A stretch of DNA of 23,374 nucleotides from positions 1-23,374 of IMG/VR virus record IMGVR_UViG_3300031851_000196; one strand, written 5' to 3'. The notes beneath the pieces were generated by a model. That model was not told the origin of the DNA and did no database searches. It worked only from the letters and a program-made list of their open reading frames with translations. Within the stretch, counting starts at the first letter, position 1. Each line of letters starts with the position of its first letter. Source of the DNA: a virus. Made by a program: the position numbers and the translations under genes. Of this stretch, positions 3,360-20,015 are shown one piece after another.

Positions 3360-6300
3360 ATGAAGTTTGCTCACATTGCGGATACTCATATCCGAAATTT
3401 AAAATACCATGAAGAATATAATGAGGTCTTTAACAAGATCTACGAGACCTTGCGTCAAGAGGGGGTGGACTGTATTGTTCATTGTGGAGACATTGCCCAC
3501 ACCAAAACGCAAATCTCTCCGGAGTTTGTGGAGATGGCTGCTAATTTTTTTAAGAACCTAGCAGACATTGCCCCAACTTACGTTATCTTAGGTAATCACG
3601 ATGGTAACTTAAAGAACGAGAATCGCCAAGATGCTCTTTCTCCAATCATTGATGCTTTGGGGCACAAGAACCTTCATTTGTTTAAGAACGCTGGCACTCA
3701 CGACATTGGAGAGGGTTTTTGCCTGAATGTTTTGAGTGTGTTCGATGAGGAAAACTGGGTAAAACCACCAGAAGAACTCATCAGCATTGCACTCTATCAC
3801 GGGTATGTTTCAGGAGTGACAACTGATACTGGTTGGGTGATGGAACACGGCGATCACGATATTGATATTTTCGATAATCACGACTTTGCATTCCTTGGAG
3901 ACATTCATAAGACGAACCAGATTCTTGATGACGACGGTCGGGTTCGATATCCGGGCTCTACAATCCAACAGAACCATGGAGAAACGAATGACAAGGGGTT
4001 CTTGCTGTGGGACATCAAGAATAAGGATGAGTTCACGTGCAAGCACATTGAGATTCCTAACCCCAAGCCGTTTGTCACAGTTGAGCTTACAAAAGCTGGC
4101 AGGGTTCCAAAGAACATTAAGTTATCAGAGGGCGCACGATTGCGCTTGGTTTGCAACCATAGTATCCCCCTTGATAAGCTCCGCCGTGCGGTGGACGCTG
4201 CTAAAACAAAGTTTAAACCAACTTCAATAACTTTCCTAAACAAAGCCATCGACAAAGGTACGATTTCGGATGTTGCAGGAGATTTGGTTCAGGAAGACCT
4301 GAGAGATACTGCGGTTCAAGAAAGCTTGATCACCAAGTTCCTTGAGGGTTATGAAGCAACCGACGCAACGATAAGCAGGGTTCACGAGTTAAACAAAAAG
4401 TATAATATTCTTGCAGAAGAAAACGAGACGGTAAAAAGAAATATAAATTGGCGACTGAAGACTCTGGAGTGGGACAACCTATTTAATTACGGAGAGGGCA
4501 ATAAGGTAGACTTTAGCGATCTTGCTGGCATCGTTGGCATTTTTGGAAAGAACTTTTCAGGGAAGTCTAGCATTATTGACAGCCTACTTTATACACTATA
4601 TAACACAACTTCAAAAGGAAATAGGAAAAACCTCAACACGATTAATCAAGATAAAGACTGGGGTCGAGGCAAGGTAGAGATCGAAATTGGCGATAACATT
4701 CTAACTGTAGAGCGTCGCAGCGAAAAATACACGAAGCGTTTGAAGGGCGAAGAGACCACAGAGGCTAAGACTGATGTTGAGTTCTATGTAAAAAATGCCG
4801 TGACGGGCGAGGTTGAGTCTCTTAACGGGCTTGACAGGAACGGTACTGATAAGAATATTAGAAAGTTCTTTGGAACATCAGAAGACTTTTTTCTAACGTC
4901 CATGGCATCTCAGTTAGAATCCCTCTCGTTTATTGCCGAAGGTTCAACCAAGAGAAAGGAAATTCTGGCAAAGTTTCTAGATTTGGATATTTTTGAGAGA
5001 AAACATAGGTTGGCAAAAGAAGATGCGTCAGATCTTAGGTCGATGCTAAAGCGGCTTGAGGAACTTGATTTTGAAGAGTTGATCCTTGAGTGTGAAAACT
5101 CCTTGGCAGAAAACTCTTTAGAAGTCGAGACACAGGAAGCGGAGTGTCGCTTGTTAAAATCTCAGATCTCGTCTGCATCAGACGAGCTTTCAGAAATACA
5201 AAACTCTATTGATTCTATTCCGGCTAAAATCATTGATGTCGCTAAGGTTACAAAGCGCAGAGACTCTGCTGCTTTAGAGGTCACGAGTTCCGAAGGTAAG
5301 AACCGAGAACTTGGGAAGACGATAAAAACGAATCGTGAGTTTGTTGAGAAGGCAGGCGCATTTCTGGAGAGTTTTGACCTCGAAGGTCTTCGCCAAAAGC
5401 AGGACTCTGTGACATCGATCGAGGAGCAAATGAAGGAGGCTAGGACACTTCAAGGCTCTCACGAGAAAGAGTTGCAGAGATTCTTAAAGAAAGAGAAATT
5501 GCTATCAAAGCATGAGTATGATCCAGAGTGTCAATATTGTAGCAGTAATGAGTTTGTTAGAGATGCTCAGGATGCAAAAAACAATATTCCGATCGTTTCG
5601 ACTAAGATTCAAGAAGCGAAGGAGGCTCACCAGAAGTTAGAATCGGAACTGGAGACTCTTCAACCTTCGCAGATTAGGGAGCACTTGGATAAGCATAAAA
5701 TGCTTCTGCGAAAGAAGACTGAAAGTGAGTCCGAGATTCAAGAGGCGGACTTGCAAGTTGCTAAAAATAAAAATCAAATCATCAGATTGAAAAACGACAT
5801 TAAAGAACTTGACGCTCAAATTTCAGAGTACGAAGAAAACCGAGAGGCGATTGAAAACCTTGAAGCCTTGGTTTCTGAACAAGCGGCATTATCTTTACAA
5901 GCTGAAAGGCATGAGGCAGACCTTGCTGTGTGTGAACAAAAGGTCATGCAACTTTACAAAGAGAACGGTTCGATTGAACAAAAACTTAAAGACGTGCACG
6001 AGAAACAAGCAGATCTGAAGAAGTATAGGCAAGACTATGCAGCACACGATCTATACGAGAAGTGTATGCACGGTAACGGCATTTCTCTGGATATTATTAA
6101 GAATAAACTGCCTGTCCTCAATGGAGAGATCGCTAGCGTGTTAGCTAATGTTGTTGATTTTGAAGTGTTCCTTCAATGCGACACAAAACATTTGGAATTG
6201 TTTATTAAACACCCCAAGTATGACGCTCGCCCACTTGAGATGGGCTCCGGTGCGGAAAAGACCATTGCTGCTATGGCAATCAGGTTGGCACTATTAAACG

Positions 6301-6515
6301 TCTCTTCGATGCCGAAGGGAGACACTTTTATTCTAGACGAACCCGGTACCGCATTAGACGAAGAGAATATGGAGGGGTTTGTAAGAATCCTAGATATAGT
6401 GAAAGCTCATTTTAAAACAGTACTTCTCATTTCTCACTTAGATTCTTTAAAAGATGCTTCAGATTCTCAAATTGTCATCGAGAAAAAGAAGGGCTTTGCT
6501 TTCGTGAATCAGTAA
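3360..6515 (+). CDS. Fused Mre11-Rad50 type recombination nuclease/ATPase (gp47-gp46, SbcD-SbcC)
   Basis: This single 1051-residue protein contains both halves of the Mre11-Rad50 complex. Residues 1-~235 are the calcineurin-like nuclease: DTH (D8, H10), GD (43-44), GNHD (78-81), a His in LYHGY (H147) and GDIH (180-183). Residues ~235-360 would be the capping/linker region. The Rad50-type ATPase follows: Walker A GKNFSGKS (396-403), a long charged coiled coil, a zinc-hook CQYC (C724, C727), a second coiled coil, signature GSGAEK (962-967), Walker B FILDEPG (990-996) and H-loop ISH (H1026). In T4, gp47 (339 aa) and gp46 (560 aa) are separate proteins that process DNA ends for recombination-dependent replication. 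All key residues are present, so both activities are expected. A strong SD (GAAGGAGGG) precedes ATG 3360. I see no internal stop or frameshift. Confidence 0.92.
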   Translation: MKFAHIADTHIRNLKYHEEYNEVFNKIYETLRQEGVDCIVHCGDIAHTKTQISPEFVEMAANFFKNLADIAPTYVILGNHDGNLKNENRQDALSPIIDALGHKNLHLFKNAGTHDIGEGFCLNVLSVFDEENWVKPPEELISIALYHGYVSGVTTDTGWVMEHGDHDIDIFDNHDFAFLGDIHKTNQILDDDGRVRYPGSTIQQNHGETNDKGFLLWDIKNKDEFTCKHIEIPNPKPFVTVELTKAGRVPKNIKLSEGARLRLVCNHSIPLDKLRRAVDAAKTKFKPTSITFLNKAIDKGTISDVAGDLVQEDLRDTAVQESLITKFLEGYEATDATISRVHELNKKYNILAEENETVKRNINWRLKTLEWDNLFNYGEGNKVDFSDLAGIVGIFGKNFSGKSSIIDSLLYTLYNTTSKGNRKNLNTINQDKDWGRGKVEIEIGDNILTVERRSEKYTKRLKGEETTEAKTDVEFYVKNAVTGEVESLNGLDRNGTDKNIRKFFGTSEDFFLTSMASQLESLSFIAEGSTKRKEILAKFLDLDIFERKHRLAKEDASDLRSMLKRLEELDFEELILECENSLAENSLEVETQEAECRLLKSQISSASDELSEIQNSIDSIPAKIIDVAKVTKRRDSAALEVTSSEGKNRELGKTIKTNREFVEKAGAFLESFDLEGLRQKQDSVTSIEEQMKEARTLQGSHEKELQRFLKKEKLLSKHEYDPECQYCSSNEFVRDAQDAKNNIPIVSTKIQEAKEAHQKLESELETLQPSQIREHLDKHKMLLRKKTESESEIQEADLQVAKNKNQIIRLKNDIKELDAQISEYEENREAIENLEALVSEQAALSLQAERHEADLAVCEQKVMQLYKENGSIEQKLKDVHEKQADLKKYRQDYAAHDLYEKCMHGNGISLDIIKNKLPVLNGEIASVLANVVDFEVFLQCDTKHLELFIKHPKYDARPLEMGSGAEKTIAAMAIRLALLNVSSMPKGDTFILDEPGTALDEENMEGFVRILDIVKAHFKTVLLISHLDSLKDASDSQIVIEKKKGFAFVNQ

Positions 6516-6521
6516 TTTTCT

Positions 6522-6531
6522 ACTATTTATT
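6522..6531. promoter_or_regulatory. ACTATTTATT intergenic motif (copy 1)
   Basis: This exact ACTATTTATT lies 7 bases after the nuclease-ATPase stop and 36 bases before the holin-like start. The same ten bases recur in other intergenic gaps (16840, 16887, 22772, variant at 20006). A promoter or processing role is inferred. Its reverse complement AATAAATAGT resembles the T4-type late core (TATAAATA), but that would read leftwards, against the genes. Confidence 0.4.
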
Positions 6532-9572: not shown

Positions 9573-11150
9573 ATGTCCTATCAATTATCGAAACAGCAAG
9601 TGTTGAAAGAGATCGTCCGCTGCGGCAACGATCCATCTTACTTTTTAAATAATTACTGTAGGATCTCCCACCCCATGAAGGGGCAGATTCCGTTCCGAAC
9701 CTACGACTACCAAGATGAACTCTTGGAGTCGTTTAATGATCACCGTTTTAATATTGTCCTCAAAGCCAGACAGTTGGGTATTTCAACCCTCTGTGCTGGC
9801 TATGTTGTTTGGATGATGCTTTTTCACAAAGATAAGAACGTTCTCGTTATGGCTACAAAGTTTGGCACAGCAGCCAACTTGGTAAAAAAAGTCAAGAACG
9901 TCATGAAGAATCTCCCTCAATGGATTAAGATTGCAGAAATTAGTGTAGATAATAGAACTTCTTTTGAGTTGTCGAATGGTTCACAGATTAAGGCATCTTC
10001 CACTTCATCAGACGCTGGTCGCTCAGAGGCTTTGTCGTTGCTCGTAATCGATGAGGCTGCTCACGTTGAGGGGTTGGATGACCTCTGGATGGGTCTGTAT
10101 CCCACCCTATCAACAGGTGGTCGTTGTATTGCGCTATCCACTCCAAATGGTGTTGGTAACTGGTTTCACCAGACGTATGTCGATGCAGACATCGCTTCTA
10201 ATGATTTTTTCCCAACAAAAATCATGTGGGATGCCCATCCCGATCGAGACCAGTCGTGGTTCGATAAAGAGACCAAGAACATGTCTCGAAGAGAGATTGC
10301 TCAAGAGCTTGAATGTAACTTTAATATGTCGGGTGAAACGGTCATTCATCCCGAAGACTTAGAGAAGCTTGAGGAGTTTCTTGAGGAACCGAAGTATAGG
10401 ACTGGGTTTGATAGAAACCTCCACATTTGGAAAAACTATGAACCAGAAAATTCTTATCTTCTTGTCGCTGACGTTGCCCGTGGGGATGGTACTGACTACT
10501 CTGCGTTTCATGTTATTGATGTGACAAATATGGAGCAGGTTGCAGAGTATCAGGGGAAAGTAGACCTAGATATGTTTGCAGACTTTCTTTATGATGTTGG
10601 TGGGCAGTTTGGTAATGCGATGTTGGTGGTGGAAAACAATAACGTTGGATACTCAGTCTTAACGAAGCTTTCGGAAAAATCATACCCTAATTTATATTTT
10701 TCTGTTAAGTCAACTCATGAGTATGTTGAGCAACACGTTGCAGAAACTCGCTCTAACTGCATTGCGGGGTTTACAACGTCAATGAAGACGAGACCTTTGA
10801 TAATCGCAAAACTAGAAGAATTCATAAGAAATAGACTAATTAAGATACACTCTAGAAGAATCTTTAACGAGTTAACTACTTTTGTTTGGAACAACGGGAA
10901 GCCAGAAGCAATGAAGAGTTATAACGATGACTTAGTTTTGAGCTTGGCAATTGCCTGTTGGGTCAGAGACACAGCCCTAGTAGCAAACCAAAGAGACTCA
11001 GAGTATAAGAGAGCGTTCCTCGGTGCGATAACGAAATCTCAAGTAGAGCTTAACACAACCATACCGGGTATGGTAGGATATACGGGAGATCAGAAACGTC
11101 GAGATGCAATCGAAGAAGTAAAAAATTATTCTTGGATATTTAAGGGATAG
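9573..11150 (+). CDS. 17: Terminase large subunit (gp17-like), ATPase + nuclease
   Basis: This 525-residue packaging motor protein would pump DNA into proheads through the portal and cut the concatemer. The N-terminal ATPase has the variant Walker A KARQLGIST (64-72), similar to the T4-type RQLGKTT loop, and Walker B LLVIDEAAH (D160, E161). STPNG (about 192-196) fits the coupling motif. The C-terminal RNase H-like nuclease has D300 in VADVARGDG, E354 in VVENNN and D452/D453 in YNDDLV. It is shorter than T4 gp17 (610 aa) but complete. The SD is weak (CGAGAG) compared with neighbours. It is followed by the portal gene after only two bases, as expected for a packaging operon. The family assignment is firm. 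Confidence 0.95.
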   Translation: MSYQLSKQQVLKEIVRCGNDPSYFLNNYCRISHPMKGQIPFRTYDYQDELLESFNDHRFNIVLKARQLGISTLCAGYVVWMMLFHKDKNVLVMATKFGTAANLVKKVKNVMKNLPQWIKIAEISVDNRTSFELSNGSQIKASSTSSDAGRSEALSLLVIDEAAHVEGLDDLWMGLYPTLSTGGRCIALSTPNGVGNWFHQTYVDADIASNDFFPTKIMWDAHPDRDQSWFDKETKNMSRREIAQELECNFNMSGETVIHPEDLEKLEEFLEEPKYRTGFDRNLHIWKNYEPENSYLLVADVARGDGTDYSAFHVIDVTNMEQVAEYQGKVDLDMFADFLYDVGGQFGNAMLVVENNNVGYSVLTKLSEKSYPNLYFSVKSTHEYVEQHVAETRSNCIAGFTTSMKTRPLIIAKLEEFIRNRLIKIHSRRIFNELTTFVWNNGKPEAMKSYNDDLVLSLAIACWVRDTALVANQRDSEYKRAFLGAITKSQVELNTTIPGMVGYTGDQKRRDAIEEVKNYSWIFKG

Positions 11151-11152
11151 AA

Positions 11153-13117
11153 ATGGCAGATAAAACAAAAAATATAAAGAACGCTGAATCACCTCTTTTC
11201 AAGAGGCTTACAAGGCTTTTTTCAGGTCCGATTGTAAATTATCGAGCGCAGACCCAACGTAAGTTTAAAAAGAGACAGCTTGCAAATAGGTCTACCCGAT
11301 TTAATGATATTAGCGGTCAAGCGTTTAGAAAACAAGAATACGACAACCTAGCTGGCTCATTGAGTGTAAACTACATGGCGCAGCAAGAGCGAGCAGAACG
11401 CTATCGAGATTTTGATCAAATGGAGTATACTCCTGAAATTGCGTCTGCTCTAGATGTCTATGCTGACGAGATGACCACCTCTTCAGATCTTCGACCCATG
11501 ATGAAGATCGACTGCCCGAATGAAGAAATAAAAGAAGTTCTCGACACTTTGTATAAAAATATCTTAAACGTGGAATTTAACATGTTTGGTTGGTGTCGAA
11601 CGTTATGCAAATATGGAGACTTTTTCCTTTATCTAGATATTGATGATACAAAGGGGATTATTAACAGCATCGGTCTCCCTTCAAATGAAATTGAGAGATT
11701 GGAGGGTGAAGACCCGACCAATCCAAACTACGTCCAGTTCCAATGGAATCAGGGCGGAATGACCTTTGAGAATTGGCAGGTTGCCCATTTCCGTGTTTTA
11801 GGGAACGACAAATATGCTCCGTATGGGACATCTATTCTTGAACCAGCACGACGAATTTGGAGACAACTGACTCTTTTAGAAGACGCAATGATGAGTTATC
11901 GTATTGTCCGCTCACCAGAACGTCGTGTGTTTTACATTGACGTTGGGAACATTCCCCCAAACGAAGTGGAGCAGTTCGTAGAAAAAGTACAGACATCGAT
12001 GAAGCGTCGTCAGGTTGTCGACCCCAATACAGGTCGTGTCGATCTTAGATACAACCCGATGAGCATTGATGAAGACTACTACGTCCCTGTTCGAGGCTCA
12101 CAAGGAGGGACAAGGATCGAGTCACTCCCCGGAGGAACCTATACTGGAGACATTGACGATGTAAAGTATTTAAGAGATAAGCTGTTCTCAGCACTCAAGG
12201 TACCCCAATCTTATTTGGCACGTGGAGACGGAGCCGACGAGGACAAGACCACTTTAGCTCAAAAAGATATTCGCTTTGCTAGAACTATTCAGAGACTGCA
12301 ACGCATTATTGTTTCTGAGATGGAGAAGGTCGGAATCGTTCACCTTTACACACTTGGTTTTCGTGGTGCTGATTTAATTAACTTCAAGCTTAAATTGATG
12401 AACCCATCAAAGATTGCAGAACTTCAAGAGTTGGAGCATTGGCGAACGAAGTTTGATATTGCAGGCGCAGCTACAGAAGACTTCTTTAGTAAGCGTTGGA
12501 TCGCAACGAACATCTTTGGTCTTGCGGAAGATGACTACTTGAGAATTCAGCACGAGATGATGCACGACGCAAAAGTCGGAGCACACAGAGAAGCAGTCGC
12601 TGAAATCGAAGGAGAGGAGTTCCGAGCACTTTACTCTGCCGGAGAGGGCGGCGAAGGCGGCGACGACATGGGAGACGATGGCGGCGGCGGCGGTCTAGGC
12701 GGCTTAGGTGGAGACGATGAAGAAGGTGACGACGGTGACCTCGGAGATCTCGGAGATGACGAGGGCGATGACGAGGGCGATGATAGTGCACTTCTTGCCG
12801 CTCCTGCTAAAAGAGCCGATGGCGGTCGTGTTACCGCCAGATCGAAGGGCAAGGTCTATCACCCAGAAAAGTCTGACTCTAGAGGCATGGGCGCAAGGCA
12901 ACGTAGTCTGAAGAGCCATTGGTCAGATGAAACAGCCTCCTCCACTTCGAGAAACGTCTTTAAGGGTGGAAACGAGCTTGCTGGCTTGGCGAGAGGTATT
13001 TATGAGAATAATGGAGATGTTCACACTAATTATACTGAAGAAGAGAGGAAGGCTCAAGAACTGAGTTCTGACATAAAGAACCTTCTCAGCAGTTTAGAGG
13101 GAAAAAAAGATGACTAA
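11153..13117 (+). CDS. 20: Portal vertex protein (gp20-like)
   Basis: This 654-residue protein would form the dodecameric ring through which DNA enters and leaves, and which nucleates prohead assembly. Characteristic stretches include YRDFDQMEYTPEIASALDVYADE, YGTSILEPARRIWRQLTLLEDAMM, RSPERRVFYIDVGNIP and the KVPQSYLARGDG-type segment, all typical of T4/cyanophage gp20. It is longer than T4 gp20 (524 aa). The extra length is mainly a low-complexity Gly/Asp/Glu tract at residues ~497-544 and a C-terminal extension of ~110 residues with basic, Ser-rich character. It lies between terminase and core-type genes, as in T4. It overlaps the next gene by 8 bp. The assignment is firm; the function of the acidic tract is unknown. 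Confidence 0.93.
   Translation: MADKTKNIKNAESPLFKRLTRLFSGPIVNYRAQTQRKFKKRQLANRSTRFNDISGQAFRKQEYDNLAGSLSVNYMAQQERAERYRDFDQMEYTPEIASALDVYADEMTTSSDLRPMMKIDCPNEEIKEVLDTLYKNILNVEFNMFGWCRTLCKYGDFFLYLDIDDTKGIINSIGLPSNEIERLEGEDPTNPNYVQFQWNQGGMTFENWQVAHFRVLGNDKYAPYGTSILEPARRIWRQLTLLEDAMMSYRIVRSPERRVFYIDVGNIPPNEVEQFVEKVQTSMKRRQVVDPNTGRVDLRYNPMSIDEDYYVPVRGSQGGTRIESLPGGTYTGDIDDVKYLRDKLFSALKVPQSYLARGDGADEDKTTLAQKDIRFARTIQRLQRIIVSEMEKVGIVHLYTLGFRGADLINFKLKLMNPSKIAELQELEHWRTKFDIAGAATEDFFSKRWIATNIFGLAEDDYLRIQHEMMHDAKVGAHREAVAEIEGEEFRALYSAGEGGEGGDDMGDDGGGGGLGGLGGDDEEGDDGDLGDLGDDEGDDEGDDSALLAAPAKRADGGRVTARSKGKVYHPEKSDSRGMGARQRSLKSHWSDETASSTSRNVFKGGNELAGLARGIYENNGDVHTNYTEEERKAQELSSDIKNLLSSLEGKKDD
12641..12784 (+). 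repeat. Low-complexity Gly/Asp/Glu-coding tract inside portal
   Basis: About 144 bases encode 48 residues that are almost only Gly, Asp and Glu, built from short repeats of GGC/GGA and GAC/GAT codons (for example GDDEG twice near the end). It gives a strongly acidic flexible linker between the conserved portal body and a basic C-terminal tail. The repeats are short and imperfect, as expected from slippage or selection for composition. Confidence 0.8.
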
Positions 13118-15009: not shown

Positions 15010-15624
15010 ATGGATCAGAAATATCTCTTAAGAGAATATTATGAACTATGTGAGGGTGGTGTTTGTCAAGACCTGCTCACAGAAGAAGAAAAAGTAGAAG
15101 TTCAAAACGGTACGATGTACCTTACTGGTGTTATGCAAAAAGCAAATCAGTTGAACGGAAACGGAAGAGTTTATCCTCGACATGTTCTAGTCAGAGAAGT
15201 CCGTAATTATGATAAGATTGTCAGAGAGGCAAGAGCTTTGGGAGAGCTAGATCACCCAGAAGACTCAGTTATTAATTTGAGAAATGCATCACACATGGTC
15301 ACCAAAGTTTGGTGGGATGGCGATAGCGTGATGGGCAAGGTAAAGATCCTTGATACCCCATCCGGAGGCATTCTTAAGTCCCTAGTTCATAGTGGCGTAA
15401 AGCTTGGAATCTCTTCCCGTGGTCTTGGCTCTGTTCACGAAGACGTGAACGGAAACACCATCGTTGAGGACGACTTCCAGCTAATTTGTTTTGATTTTGT
15501 TTCTGAACCTTCCACTCCGGGAGCCTATATGGTGAAAGAGGGAATGCAGAGACAAACAGATGTTTATACCAAGGCAGATAGAATCAATCGTATTCTAAAT
15601 GATATTGTAGGTGAAAATCGATGA
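15010..15624 (+). CDS. 21: Prohead core protease (gp21-like, S78-type)
   Basis: This 204-residue protein is the assembly protease that cuts scaffold, core and capsid proteins during prohead maturation. It has the expected motifs: GELDHPE (catalytic His82) and LGISSRG (Ser135/Ser136), with the downstream FDFVSEPSTPGA block (D162) typical of this family. The length is close to T4 gp21 (212 aa). It starts at ATG 15010 in front of MDQKYLLREYYE; upstream AAGGGCGAGGAATTTTAAG contains an SD-like GAGGA. The stop overlaps the next start (ATGA). Candidate cleavage sites of the LxE/[AG] type are present in the major capsid protein and scaffold of this window. The assignment is firm. Confidence 0.92.
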   Translation: MDQKYLLREYYELCEGGVCQDLLTEEEKVEVQNGTMYLTGVMQKANQLNGNGRVYPRHVLVREVRNYDKIVREARALGELDHPEDSVINLRNASHMVTKVWWDGDSVMGKVKILDTPSGGILKSLVHSGVKLGISSRGLGSVHEDVNGNTIVEDDFQLICFDFVSEPSTPGAYMVKEGMQRQTDVYTKADRINRILNDIVGENR

Positions 15625-16064
15625 ATAAGAACGAGCTAAAAAAAATTCTTAAACCTTTAATCAAGGAGTGCATTAAGGAGGTGATTTTCGAGTCAGGTGT
15701 ACTTTCAAAGGTTGTATCAGAAGTAGCTCACGGTTTGGGTAATAACAATCCCCCACCGCTAAGGGAGGAAAACTCTCCTCCAGTAGAAAGGCAGTTCGTT
15801 AAAGAAGCTGCCGACAGTCGTCGCACAGAAACCAGCAGTAAAATTCATGAATATAAGAAAAGATTCGCTGAGCAGGTCAGCCGAGAAAACTTTGGAGGAA
15901 TTGATGTCTTTGAAGGCACAACCCCTCTATCGTCAGGCGGCTCGCCCGGAAGTACTCAAGCAGCAGGACCGCTAGCAAATAGAGAAGCTAGTGATCCGGG
16001 TATTGATATTTCCGGCTTGGTCGGTCAAAACTCCAAAACGTGGAAAGCGTTAATTAACGAGTAG
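15621..16064 (+). CDS. Small protein downstream of prohead protease, possible core protein
   Basis: This 147-residue protein has an N-terminal amphipathic, Lys-rich helix (NELKKILKPLIKECIKEVIF), a Pro/Asn-rich linker, a charged middle (HEYKKRFAEQVSRENFGGIDVF) and a Gly/Ser/Ala-rich C-terminus. It has no enzyme motif or membrane segment. Its start overlaps the protease stop by four bases (ATGA), so the two are likely translated together. This suggests a role in prohead core assembly or as a processed internal protein. The family is not one I can name. Confidence 0.5.
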   Translation: MNKNELKKILKPLIKECIKEVIFESGVLSKVVSEVAHGLGNNNPPPLREENSPPVERQFVKEAADSRRTETSSKIHEYKKRFAEQVSRENFGGIDVFEGTTPLSSGGSPGSTQAAGPLANREASDPGIDISGLVGQNSKTWKALINE

Positions 16065-16072
16065 GAAATGAT

Positions 16073-16339
16073 ATGGCAAACAAACCAGTAAATGCAGAAG
16101 TTGTAGTCGGAAGGATGCACATTGAAAAAGCTATTCGGCTTTTTAGTAAAAAGTGCAAACGTGATGGCTTATTGGAAGAGATTCGAGAAAAGTCTCCTTT
16201 AGGGAAACCTCGGTTTAAATCAAAAAGAGATAAGAGATTGGCTAAGCAAAAAAAGTATAGACTTGAGATGCAGCGAATCGAAAGAAAAAAGAAGAAAGCT
16301 TTGGAGCGACGTTCTCGTGGTCCCAAGATCAGAAGATAG
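16073..16339 (+). CDS. rpsU-like: Ribosomal protein bS21 homologue (phage-encoded)
   Basis: This 88-residue, very basic protein follows the bS21 pattern. It has a short N-terminal strand (NAEVVVGRM), then the conserved helix IEKAIRLFSKKCKRDGLLEE, matching the bS21 core of ALRRFKRxxxxxGxLxEhR, then a KPRFKSKRDKR segment equivalent to the conserved KPSxKRRR region, and a long Lys/Arg helix. Bacterial bS21 is ~70 residues; the extra length is a basic tail. bS21 sits on the 30S platform near the anti-SD and helps initiation. Phage bS21 copies are known from aquatic phages and are thought to enter host ribosomes. AGGA lies 6 bases before ATG 16073. The location inside the head-assembly block implies late expression. 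The main alternative is a basic DNA-binding or core protein. Confidence 0.75.
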   Translation: MANKPVNAEVVVGRMHIEKAIRLFSKKCKRDGLLEEIREKSPLGKPRFKSKRDKRLAKQKKYRLEMQRIERKKKKALERRSRGPKIRR

Positions 16340-16397: not shown

Positions 16398-16799
16398 ATG
16401 TCGCAAGCAAAATTAGGAATGAGAACAAGAAACCCGATCGGCAATGCTGATTCGAGTGCTGTAGGTGAGGTTGCCAAAGTAGTGGGCAATGTGACCATCG
16501 TCGCTGCTGGTGACCTTGCTTCTGGTCTTAACAGTACCGATGACGGCAAGAACGGATATTGGGCAGGCGCAAGCCGATATGCCCACATTCAAGTTGACCA
16601 CACCGATGACGTTACGGTGTACGCATACAATTATGTTTTTGGTACATGGGCTCCTCTTATGCAACTCGGACCAGCAGGTTACGTCCCTGCAACATTCACA
16701 GAAGATGGTCATTATATTTTAGAAATCTCAGGCGCAGACCGTATTGCTCTCGTCGGTGCCGGTCTTTCGACTGCAAAAATTGCCTTTAACAGCTTCTAG
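16398..16799 (+). CDS. Small beta-rich protein, possible capsid decoration protein
   Basis: This 133-residue protein is predicted to be strand-rich and has no membrane segment or enzyme motif. It begins MSQAKLGMRTRNPIGNADSS and contains alternating hydrophobic strands (VTIVAAGDL, YAHIQVDH, VTVYAYNYV, HYILEISGADRIALVGAG) and aromatic loops. It sits just before the scaffold and capsid genes with its own strong SD (AAAGGAGAGG). A small, independently translated, beta-rich protein at this point could be a head decoration or accessory capsid protein, like Hoc/Soc in role but not recognisably in sequence. That is inference from position and composition. Confidence 0.5.
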   Translation: MSQAKLGMRTRNPIGNADSSAVGEVAKVVGNVTIVAAGDLASGLNSTDDGKNGYWAGASRYAHIQVDHTDDVTVYAYNYVFGTWAPLMQLGPAGYVPATFTEDGHYILEISGADRIALVGAGLSTAKIAFNSF

Positions 16800-16839: not shown

Positions 16840-16849
16840 ACTATTTATT
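16840..16849. promoter_or_regulatory. ACTATTTATT intergenic motif (copy 2)
   Basis: This exact copy of the recurrent ten bases lies 41 bases after the small structural gene and is extended here as ACTATTTATTTATT. A 7-bp hairpin starts 12 bases further on. It is one of two copies in the 147-bp gap before the scaffold gene. A promoter or processing role is inferred. Confidence 0.4.
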
Positions 16850-16860
16850 TATTGAAACAG

Positions 16861-16888
16861 GTTGGTGGGTTTTTCACATTTCACCAAC
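16861..16888 (+). other. Hairpin between two motif copies, upstream of scaffold
   Basis: GTTGGTG (16861-16867) and CACCAAC (16882-16888) form a perfect 7-bp stem with a 14-base loop; the right arm runs into the second ACTATTTATT. The bases after the stem are AT-rich but not a U-run, so it is at most a weak terminator. It may protect or regulate the scaffold transcript, or separate it from upstream transcription. Confidence 0.45.
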
Positions 16889-16946: not shown

Positions 16947-17963
16947 ATGGCTACAGAAATTTCTTCATCTTTACTAGAACAGGCTATCGTTGACGCTTCT
17001 GCTTTAAAAGAAGCTGCGATTAAAAATGCCGAATCCGCTCTTGTCGGCAAATATGCTGATGATATCAAAGAAGCGGTAGATACCCTACTTGAGGCAGAGG
17101 AGGACGAGCTTGGACTCGGCGGCGGACTCGGAGAAGAAGAGCCTGCTATGGATGCTTCTATGCCAGATGTACCAGCGGCAATGGGAGACGGAGAGCGTCT
17201 TTGCCCGTGCCCTGAAGAGAACCAAGAAGTTGTTATCGACTTCGATGCCCTGAGACAAGAAATCGACGCAGAAGAGGCAGGCGGCGACGCTATGCCCGGA
17301 ACCGATGACGCTTTGGGTGGAATCGAAGAACCCCTTGGTGCAGAAGAGGAAGAGGAAGACGAACTGGCTCTTGAAGAGTCTGTTCTTAGTCAACTCGCCG
17401 CTGCACTAGAGGAAGAGTTAAAGGTCGATGTCAAGCCTGTTCCAAGTGGAACTTTGGGCGGTGCTGCTGCCAACCCTCGTGATAAAGAGGAAATTGAAGA
17501 TGCAGCCACAGCACAAGCCCGTGATACAGAATTTGCTGAAGAGAACAAGCAGCTTAAAAAAGCTGTGAAGGATCTTCAAGAAAACATGAGCAATACTACT
17601 AGCGAAAATAAAAAGTTGGCTAGTATTGTTCGTCAAATGAGCGCACGTTTAACAGAGGTTAATCTGTCTAACGCTAAGCTTGTTTATAAAAATCGTGTTT
17701 TAAATAGCGACTCCCTGAATGAGCGACAAAAAATTAAAATTGTCGAAGCTATTTCCGGCGCACGAACAACCAAAGAAGCGAAGGTTATTTATGAAACTCT
17801 TCAAAGCACGGTGCGGGGAACTGCTGAAAAGCGTTCACCAAAATCACTAAGCGAAGCGGTCACTAAAACATCTTCACCATTCTTGCCCCGCAGTCGAAAT
17901 GAGGCACAGGTTTCAAATGAACCTGCACTTACTAGAATGCAACGATTAGCCGGAATTAAGTAA
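16947..17963 (+). CDS. 22: Prohead scaffold protein (gp22-like)
   Basis: This 338-residue, strongly acidic helical protein lies directly before the major capsid gene, as gp22 does in T4 (269 aa). The first half contains acidic, Gly-rich linkers (EEDELGLGGGLGEEEP, GAEEEEEDELALEE) and a CPCPEE segment (C86, C88) followed by VVIDFDAL. The second half has a coiled coil (about 200-255) and ends with RMQRLAGIK. The scaffold fills the prohead and is degraded by gp21; a candidate LxE/A site is TLLEAEE (E49/A50), and others of this type may exist. ATG 16947 follows AGGAACAGG. The assignment rests on position, composition and the C-terminal pattern. Confidence 0.82.
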   Translation: MATEISSSLLEQAIVDASALKEAAIKNAESALVGKYADDIKEAVDTLLEAEEDELGLGGGLGEEEPAMDASMPDVPAAMGDGERLCPCPEENQEVVIDFDALRQEIDAEEAGGDAMPGTDDALGGIEEPLGAEEEEEDELALEESVLSQLAAALEEELKVDVKPVPSGTLGGAAANPRDKEEIEDAATAQARDTEFAEENKQLKKAVKDLQENMSNTTSENKKLASIVRQMSARLTEVNLSNAKLVYKNRVLNSDSLNERQKIKIVEAISGARTTKEAKVIYETLQSTVRGTAEKRSPKSLSEAVTKTSSPFLPRSRNEAQVSNEPALTRMQRLAGIK

Positions 17964-18005: not shown

Positions 18006-19919
18006 ATGTCAGTTCTTAAAACTTTAACAGAGAACGTTGTCAAGCGCAATCTCCAGAGAGAAGGTCAAGCACTTATTAACAAGTGGGAAAAGACCGGTCT
18101 TCTGGAAGGACTTGGTAACGATTATATCAAAAATTCAATGGCGGTTCTTCTTGAGAACCAAGCTAAAGAGCTTCTTCGTGAAGCAACCACGATGGCATCT
18201 GGTGATGTTGACGGCTATGCCGCAGTAGCATTCCCAATCGTTCGTCGTGTATTCGGTGGTCTTCTTGCTAACCAACTTGTGTCGGTTCAGCCAATGAGTC
18301 TGCCAAGTGGTCTTGTATTCTTCTTGGATTTCACCAAGGGTGGAAGCCGAGACGGCGCAGGTACTGATGGTACTTCAATCTTTGGTGGTGGCACATCTGG
18401 TGCTGGCATCATGACTGGTGTTGATGTTGACTCAAACGAAGACGGTTTCTACAATCTTCGCCAAGGTCTGACTTCAGCCCGTGGTGGTATCTCACCCGCC
18501 AAACAAATGATCAAGCGTGTCGGAGCGGATATTACCCTTGATGGAGACCTCACCGAAGGTGAGCAGCAATCTCTTAGCTTCGATGCTGACCTTTGTGCAA
18601 CCGATAGTAGTCAGGTCGCAACCGTCGTCCGAATCAACATCGGCGAAGCAACAGCGCACGATCCGTCAACTGACCCTCGTGTTGCAAGCACTCAAACCCT
18701 CAACGCCGGGGAAGCTGCTGCTGCTGGTGTAACTCAGGTTGCAGCTTCAGACATGAACCGCATGATGCGTCTTGGTCTTAGCCACCTTGACATGACTGCC
18801 GTCGGTGGTGGTGATCTTTCGGGTCATGCTGACTTCGGTGCTGGTGGTGTTGGTGTAACTGCTCGTGTTGTTCGTCGTTTGACGAGAATTGTTGACTCTA
18901 GCGGAAATGCTGTTACTCGTGACACATTCGCTCAACATGCCGCCGCAGGCGACTTGCTTGAGATGGTTGTTGTCACATCTGGCGGTGCTGACCTGTCGGC
19001 GAATACTTTGCCTTCAGTAGCGGAGGTCGAGGCGGCAGCCACAGTAGAGATTAACTTTGCAATCAGCGATAACCTTCAGTCTGCTTCTTCAGGTGCCCTT
19101 GGTGCCCTTGAGGGTGCTGCTCAATGGCAGTTCGAGGACAACTCTCTCGGCGTAAATGCCGGTGGTATCCCAGAGATCGACATTCAGGTTGACTCAGCAG
19201 CTATCACCGCTGCCACTCGTAAGTTGAAGGCACGTTGGACTCCAGAGCTTGCTCAGGATCTTAACGCTTACCACAACTTGGATGCAGAGGTTGAGTTGAC
19301 AGGTGTTCTTTCAGAGCACATCTCGCTTGAGATTGACCAAGAGATTCTTGGCGACCTTATCCGTGGTGCTACTGCTGATAAGCTTTACTGGTCACGCAAC
19401 CCCGGTCAGTTCGTAAACCGTTCAAGCGGAGCGGCGTTGGCTGATGGTACTGCTGATTTCACCGGTACTGTTTCAGAGTGGTATGAGACTCTTGTTGAGA
19501 CTATCAACGATGTTTCTGCTTCAATTCACCGTAAGACCCTTCGTGGTGGTGCTAACTTCTTGGTCTGTGGACCAGAGGTTGCTAACATTCTTGAGTTCAC
19601 CAGCGGCTTCCGAGCTTCTGTAACTCACGATGACGACAAGGGAACTGTTGGTGCTGTTCAGACTGGCTCTATCAGTAAGAAGTTCGATCTCTTCGTAGAT
19701 CCTTACTTCCCACGTAACGTAATCCTTGTTGGACGTAAGGGTGGTTCATTCCTCGAAAGTGGATATGTCTACGCTCCATACGTTCCACTACAGGTCACTC
19801 CTACGATCTTCGATCCGGACGACTTCACTCCTCGCAAGGCTGTGATGACCCGTTATGGTAAGAAGCTTGTAGCATCTGACATGTACGGACTCGTTCTGGT
19901 TCGTGGTCTTAGAGGATAA
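18006..19919 (+). CDS. 23: Major capsid protein (gp23-like)
   Basis: This 637-residue protein is the T4-family major head protein (HK97 fold). The N-terminus has the delta domain and GLLEGLGNDY (as in T4 KPLLEGEGLPEI), then KELLREATTMASGDVDGYAAVAF. LRE/A at E59/A60 fits the gp21 cleavage rule and lies near the T4 cut site (after E65). VRRVFGGLLANQLVSVQPMSLPSG and later LKARWTPELAQDL and VGRKGGSFLESGYVYAPYVPL are typical gp23 segments. It is longer than T4 gp23 (521 aa), with a Gly/Ala/Thr-rich insertion in the middle third. Codons look more uniform (GGT, CGT, CTT, GCT) than in neighbours, as expected for high expression. The SD GGGAGG precedes ATG 18006. An intrinsic terminator follows. Confidence 0.95.
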   Translation: MSVLKTLTENVVKRNLQREGQALINKWEKTGLLEGLGNDYIKNSMAVLLENQAKELLREATTMASGDVDGYAAVAFPIVRRVFGGLLANQLVSVQPMSLPSGLVFFLDFTKGGSRDGAGTDGTSIFGGGTSGAGIMTGVDVDSNEDGFYNLRQGLTSARGGISPAKQMIKRVGADITLDGDLTEGEQQSLSFDADLCATDSSQVATVVRINIGEATAHDPSTDPRVASTQTLNAGEAAAAGVTQVAASDMNRMMRLGLSHLDMTAVGGGDLSGHADFGAGGVGVTARVVRRLTRIVDSSGNAVTRDTFAQHAAAGDLLEMVVVTSGGADLSANTLPSVAEVEAAATVEINFAISDNLQSASSGALGALEGAAQWQFEDNSLGVNAGGIPEIDIQVDSAAITAATRKLKARWTPELAQDLNAYHNLDAEVELTGVLSEHISLEIDQEILGDLIRGATADKLYWSRNPGQFVNRSSGAALADGTADFTGTVSEWYETLVETINDVSASIHRKTLRGGANFLVCGPEVANILEFTSGFRASVTHDDDKGTVGAVQTGSISKKFDLFVDPYFPRNVILVGRKGGSFLESGYVYAPYVPLQVTPTIFDPDDFTPRKAVMTRYGKKLVASDMYGLVLVRGLRG

Positions 19920-20005: not shown

Positions 20006-20015
20006 ACTATTTACT
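20006..20015. promoter_or_regulatory. ACTATTTACT motif variant (copy 4)
   Basis: ACTATTTACT differs from the recurrent ACTATTTATT at one position. It lies 6 bases after the T-run of the capsid terminator and 48 bases before the neck gene, the place expected for a promoter restarting transcription. The role is inferred. Confidence 0.4.

Follow-up and report, generated by a model that had tools for sequence, protein, structure and literature searches.

The bS21 gene and its relatives

This report concerns a small open reading frame (ORF) of a T4-like myovirus, which lies on the + strand at 16073..16339 (ATG 16073 to TAG 16339) of the IMG/VR virus record IMGVR_UViG_3300031851_000196 and encodes 88 amino acids (aa). 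The 23.4-kb stretch from position 1 to 23,374 of that record was analysed as a whole and is called the window below. Is this ORF a ribosomal protein gene? The original prediction, made from the sequence alone, took it for bS21, and the searches agree. PF01165 is its best Pfam match (E=4.2e-5, 23.6 bits; gathering cut-off 27), TIGR00030 S21p its top NCBIfam match (6.6e-5, 22.7 bits; cut-off 28.95), and phrog_21469 'ribosomal protein S21' its top PHROGs match (7.8e-5). A significant match to the family profile, on which the prediction had staked the identity, is present at the Pfam E-value just given. All 31 matches of the window protein among PDB sequences (31/31) are cellular or mitochondrial bS21.

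When viral contigs were searched by pattern with the window bS21 protein itself, no relatives came up, and for this reason relatives were collected through their capsid or protease genes. The 160 IMG/VR loci gathered in this way are a sample independent of bS21; the records are mostly fragments, and they come from environmental metagenomes, apparently largely aquatic ones. An iterated profile search gave 85 homologous ORFs, including the window copy (L001) and that of Pelagibacter phage HTVC008M. PF01165 matches 35 of 39 records of relatives, 30 of the 39 over the cut-off, with scores up to 63 bits. L083 and L084 (46% and 39-41% identical to the window protein) score about 57 bits against PF01165, and because such relatives bridge the gap, the identity of the sub-cut-off window copy is settled. 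A profile built from the window protein and 22 relatives matched 34 PDB sequences, all of them bS21 (34/34; best E=6e-14).

The AlphaFold2 model (mean pLDDT 85) has helices at residues 17-30, 33-40 and 46-81, in keeping with the helical arrangement of bS21; the protein is predicted to be short and all-helical with a basic C-terminal helix, as expected of bS21. Close pairs of relatives with measurable dS have dN/dS of about 0.05-0.13, which indicates purifying selection, many other pairs being saturated at silent sites. An antisense ORF at 16054-16326 was rejected as a chance frame, since the + frame is the one backed by homology. We regard 16073-16339 as confirmed, at the level of sequence comparison, as a real gene of the bS21 family.

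Position among the head genes

The window carries a T4-like myovirus gene set of terminase, gp20 portal, S77 protease, gp23 capsid and the start of a tail sheath gene. The bS21 gene lies between the S77 protease with its neighbour orf147 on one side and the scaffold gene with the gp23-type capsid gene on the other, and its predicted placement between prohead protease and capsid genes holds far beyond the window. It is found with orf147, ahead of the scaffold and major capsid genes, in 82/82 judgeable loci, that is, loci in which orf147 is present and enough downstream sequence is available. The gap between orf147 and bS21 is at most 100 nt in 78 of the 82; in L093 the only difference is a start codon farther upstream, and in L026, L135 and L160 one or two accessory genes separate the two. 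Extra genes are frequent between protease and orf147 and so rare between orf147 and bS21 that these two behave as a linked pair. Every bS21 homologue found, that of the window included, is on the strand of the head genes.

All of the neighbours are on the + strand. Upstream lie the T4-type large terminase subunit gene (9573..11150; PF03237 9e-10; 45% identity to TerL of Flavobacterium phage immuto), the T4 gp20-type portal gene (11153..13117; PF07230 3.5e-81), and the gene of the T4 gp21-type prohead core protease, Peptidase_S77 (15010..15624; PF03420 E=2e-32; phrog_207 1e-55). The 147-aa product of orf147 (15621..16064), which adjoins bS21, is a probable prohead core protein with cleavage motifs in 99% of its homologues; it had no convincing family match in the Pfam and PHROGs searches. 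Downstream, a 133-aa accessory ORF (16398..16799) has few homologues and no family match, and may encode a decoration protein. The next gene, at 16947..17963, is taken as the gp22-like scaffold gene by its position and by its gp21-type motifs (4.7 vs 1.7 shuffled). The gp23-family major capsid gene follows (18006..19919, 637 aa; PF07068 1.5e-70). The main match of the Gp23 model covers residues 349-627 of this capsid protein, so that, compared with T4 gp23, a domain may have been inserted or extended.

Variable small accessory genes, orf133-like or other, flank bS21 in the window (16398-16799) and in relatives (L093 7275-7682, L026 5457-6415, L160 6161-6586). Genes similar to the 133-aa ORF stand on either side of bS21 in some relatives and accessory genes are sometimes duplicated (L135 7613-8584), so that the surroundings of bS21 look like a hot spot of decoration proteins.

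Translation initiation and transcription signals

The original prediction held that the late messages of this phage have unusually strong Shine-Dalgarno (SD) sites. Over 22 gene starts in the window, pairing with the anti-SD averages -7.3 kcal/mol, compared with -4.2 for shuffled sequences and -2.6 for internal ATGs. The capsid gene, with the SD GGGAGGA (-11.3 kcal/mol), is extreme and conserved: in relatives its mean is -10.9, and 95% of the sites are at -7 or stronger (n=84). Thus the strength of the sites stood up to analysis. Their restriction to late genes did not, since the strongest SD of the window belongs to an SbcDC-type recombination gene at 3360 (-12.2), and scaffold (-4.4) and TerL (-3.4) have weak ones, as does bS21 itself (-4.9). 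In relatives the scaffold SD is strong (-7.1) and the bS21 start is near background (-4.8 vs -3.8). Among control phages, immuto has no SD signal, T4 gene 23 has -3.4, one cyanophage 0.2 and Vibrio phage Va1 -8.7. The capsid SD is notable across the clade, to be read beside the similar capsid site of Va1, whose examined region carries no annotated bS21, and beside the SbcDC-type gene. That gene is a 1051-aa ORF (3360-6515) in which SbcD (gp47-like, residues 1-344) and SbcC (gp46-like, 206-1047) appear to be fused, an apparent fusion of recombination nuclease subunits.

What is the host of these phages? The use of SD sites argues against a typical Bacteroidia host and does not identify the host. 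A search of cellular bS21 gave seven scattered matches (Nitrospira, Binatia, Desulfuromonadales and others) at 32-47% in local alignments, useless for assigning a host, and a diverged protein of 88 residues is too little to build a host phylogeny on. Genes of psbA type (PF00124) are absent from 26 long relatives, mostly fragmentary records, and oxygenic phototrophs as hosts thus gain no support.

The place of bS21 in the cluster makes its late expression plausible. A candidate phage promoter element, CTATTTATT, lies on the + strand between bS21 and the scaffold gene at 16841..16849, with a second copy at 16888; the case for it is the strand bias of CTATTTAT, which occurs in the 160 loci in 294 coding-strand and 9 opposite-strand copies, where 28 are expected. 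Commonly it stands right behind bS21 or some 38 nt ahead of the scaffold gene, and a T-rich patch lies about 16 nt upstream of the copies. In the window it is found at 6523, 16841, 16888 and 22773, mostly before virion genes, with CTATTTAC at 20007. Those sites that lie at the end of the portal gene, before a 280-aa ORF, may reflect conserved protein sequence. The reverse complement of CTATTTAT resembles the T4 late element. If CTATTTAT is a late promoter, bS21 would close one head unit and the scaffold-capsid unit would start after it. The T4 late promoter TATAAATA itself has 41 near-matches in the window vs 18 expected; no exact copy was found within 150 nt on either side of bS21 in relatives, and a sigma-70 scan gave no excess.

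Divergence of the window copy

The segment KPRFKSKRDKR had been read as matching bS21, and it turned out to be where the window copy departs most from the family. The consensus there is [RK]x[YF][YF]xKPSxKKR and the window copy reads KSPLGKPRFKSKR; it retains F24, K45 and P46 and has lost the near-invariant S47 and both aromatics (KSPLGKPR). This loss of the near-universal aromatic-E-K-P-S motif appears, from alignment, to be the unusual feature of the window copy. The motif, with S or T in its last position, is common in the bS21 family, conserved but not strictly defining. The nearest relatives of the window keep it, L084 and L087 with KKS for KPS. At the position of Tyr54, located by counting from the K-P pair without gaps and hence approximate for the window, the window has Gln; the residue is aromatic in 4/85 homologues, the bulk of the clade has Arg or Lys, and L083, L084, L087 and L088, the nearest relatives of the window, have Tyr or His.

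The basic tail, about 18 residues longer, had been regarded as an addition specific to phages, which the lengths contradict: most relatives have 70-96 aa and end in a basic tail, and PDB holds an 88-aa bS21 (7qg8). The four relatives nearest to the window protein measure 76-81 aa, which makes it longer by about 7-12 residues. In some relatives the homologue in the same slot has drifted nearly or entirely beyond Pfam bS21 (L089 5042-5404, L097 7078-7341, L143 10929-11219, L149 9448-9753), and a change of function is possible there.

Comparison with known phages

Ribosomal protein genes of this family are well documented in phages. In 2019 it was reported that phage bS21 occurs in aquatic viruses, is under purifying selection and is incorporated into E. 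coli ribosomes (PMC6375957). Chen et al. 2022 (PMC9723584) described phage bS21 in the TerL-portal-protease-capsid region, co-expressed with structural genes and, in lake metatranscriptomes, expressed with capsid genes; they proposed that it is made late and favours phage transcripts. In a set of 900 published bS21 phages, no structural gene adjoined bS21 more often than the prohead protease (n=310). Hence the location of bS21 among head genes, its late expression and a translation favouring the phage were already published in 2022 and are not new here. The Bacteroidetes lake phages of that study are like the window in having bS21 among TerL, portal, protease and capsid genes. However, their bS21 is on the reverse strand with bS21_CN, whereas in the window clade it is on the head-gene strand and mostly directly after orf147. 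They also have an aromatic Tyr54, a residue which in Flavobacterium bS21 helps hide the anti-SD (PMC9976891; PMC9723584), where the window has Gln and so few homologues are aromatic; and unlike them, the window clade uses SD sequences.

Which phages come closest in arrangement? The cultured Microcystis phage Mel-JY01 has its RpsU (WWT39311.1) in the same slot, in the order protease, 154-aa ORF, RpsU and then capsid, with moderate SD use. This RpsU is 75 aa long, keeps KPS and shares about 20% identity with the window protein in a 32-sequence alignment. In the huge phage LR756508 (484 kb) a bS21 homologue likewise precedes the capsid gene. HTVC008M is, like the window phage, a T4-like myovirus carrying bS21 (AGE60443), but there the gene adjoins cobS-like and replication genes (sliding clamp, clamp loader, DNA polymerase), away from the capsid. 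Flavobacterium phage immuto is a close terminase and capsid relative among cultured phages; its genes show no SD signal, and no bS21 was found in the part of its head-gene region that was examined. Relative to the literature consulted on phage bS21, three features are new: the pairing of orf147 and bS21 on the strand of the head genes, fixed throughout the clade; the occurrence of bS21 together with SD use and without Tyr54; and the motif loss of the window copy.

Possible role of the phage bS21

Why would a phage keep a ribosomal protein gene among its head genes? We consider it likely that the gene encodes a diverged phage bS21, fixed in the head cluster of a T4-like clade, which is probably made late and exchanges onto the host 30S subunit. 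The family membership, fixed position, purifying selection and SD use from which this reading starts are observed in the clade itself. Late expression and incorporation into ribosomes would follow published work on other phages. The gene would probably be transcribed in the head gene unit; its product would then take the place of the host protein beside the anti-SD helix of the 30S subunit, and the resulting ribosomes would have initiation properties set by the phage. That such ribosomes favour late phage mRNAs, as originally proposed, is speculative, and that interpretation as a whole is partly supported. Several observations weigh against our reading: the Pfam and NCBIfam scores of the window copy fall under the curated cut-offs; a Foldseek search with its predicted structure gave no significant match, the best bS21 match being 7qv1_b at E=1.2; and the motif loss together with the low scores makes ribosome binding by the window copy less certain than by its relatives.

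Some other explanations should be weighed. The protein might simply replenish an exchangeable bS21 and keep late ribosomes competent with no preference among mRNAs, a variant of the reading above rather than its opposite. We see this as possible though clearly less likely: in a published view the ribosomal proteins that phages carry are the dynamic, exchangeable ones (PMC6375957), and SD strength in the window phage does not separate late genes from others, but an identity of 32-47% to the cellular bS21 found does not suit a simple spare copy. A role as host-shutoff factor, which enters ribosomes and lowers general translation without selecting phage mRNAs, appears unlikely. In the single functional test published, HTVC008M bS21 entered E. 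coli 70S ribosomes, which then kept about 5% of their in vitro activity on a GFP template (PMC6375957), and the window copy is altered in the most conserved motif of its family. However, that assay used a non-cognate host, and a late block of translation would also harm capsid synthesis.

A different kind of explanation is that the ORF encodes a small basic protein of the prohead core or capsid interior, comparable to T4 gp68/gp67, which ends up packaged in the head and is only a descendant or look-alike of bS21. Its lysine/arginine-rich composition, its fixed place beside the prohead protease and orf147, itself a probable core protein, and the weak or absent bS21 profile match of six slot homologues (L089, L091, L090, L097, L143 and L149) would fit this. 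But by profile most relatives are canonical bS21, and gp21-type sites, [LI]xE[AGS], occur in only 6% of the 85 bS21 homologues (shuffled 8%; 0.06 per protein vs 0.08) and not in the window copy, compared with 99% of orf147, 100% of scaffold, 100% of capsid and 86% of protease homologues, the 280-aa ORF being enriched as well. Because bS21 is without the sites enriched in its neighbours, processing with the head core is disfavoured; the expectation for a basic protein is low, so that their absence is moderate evidence. Judged by these motifs, bS21 is probably not a processed core protein, and homologues that are packaged core proteins, which the original prediction had named as a counter-case, are disfavoured. 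The protein might be packaged without processing; we hold the packaged-protein explanation as a whole to be improbable.

Returning to exchange onto host ribosomes, bS21 and the strong conserved capsid SD might even act jointly. Replacement of host bS21 would change the availability of the anti-SD, ribosomes would come to prefer capsid mRNA, and the window copy, its conserved motif remodelled, would be a further specialised late switch; this extension is improbable at present. What the clade adds is a T4-like lineage with bS21 fixed in the head cluster beside one partner gene, in phages that use SD sites. Whether phage bS21 affects mRNA choice can thereby be tested away from Bacteroidetes, hosts with a hidden anti-SD, and Mel-JY01 is a cultured phage with the same arrangement.
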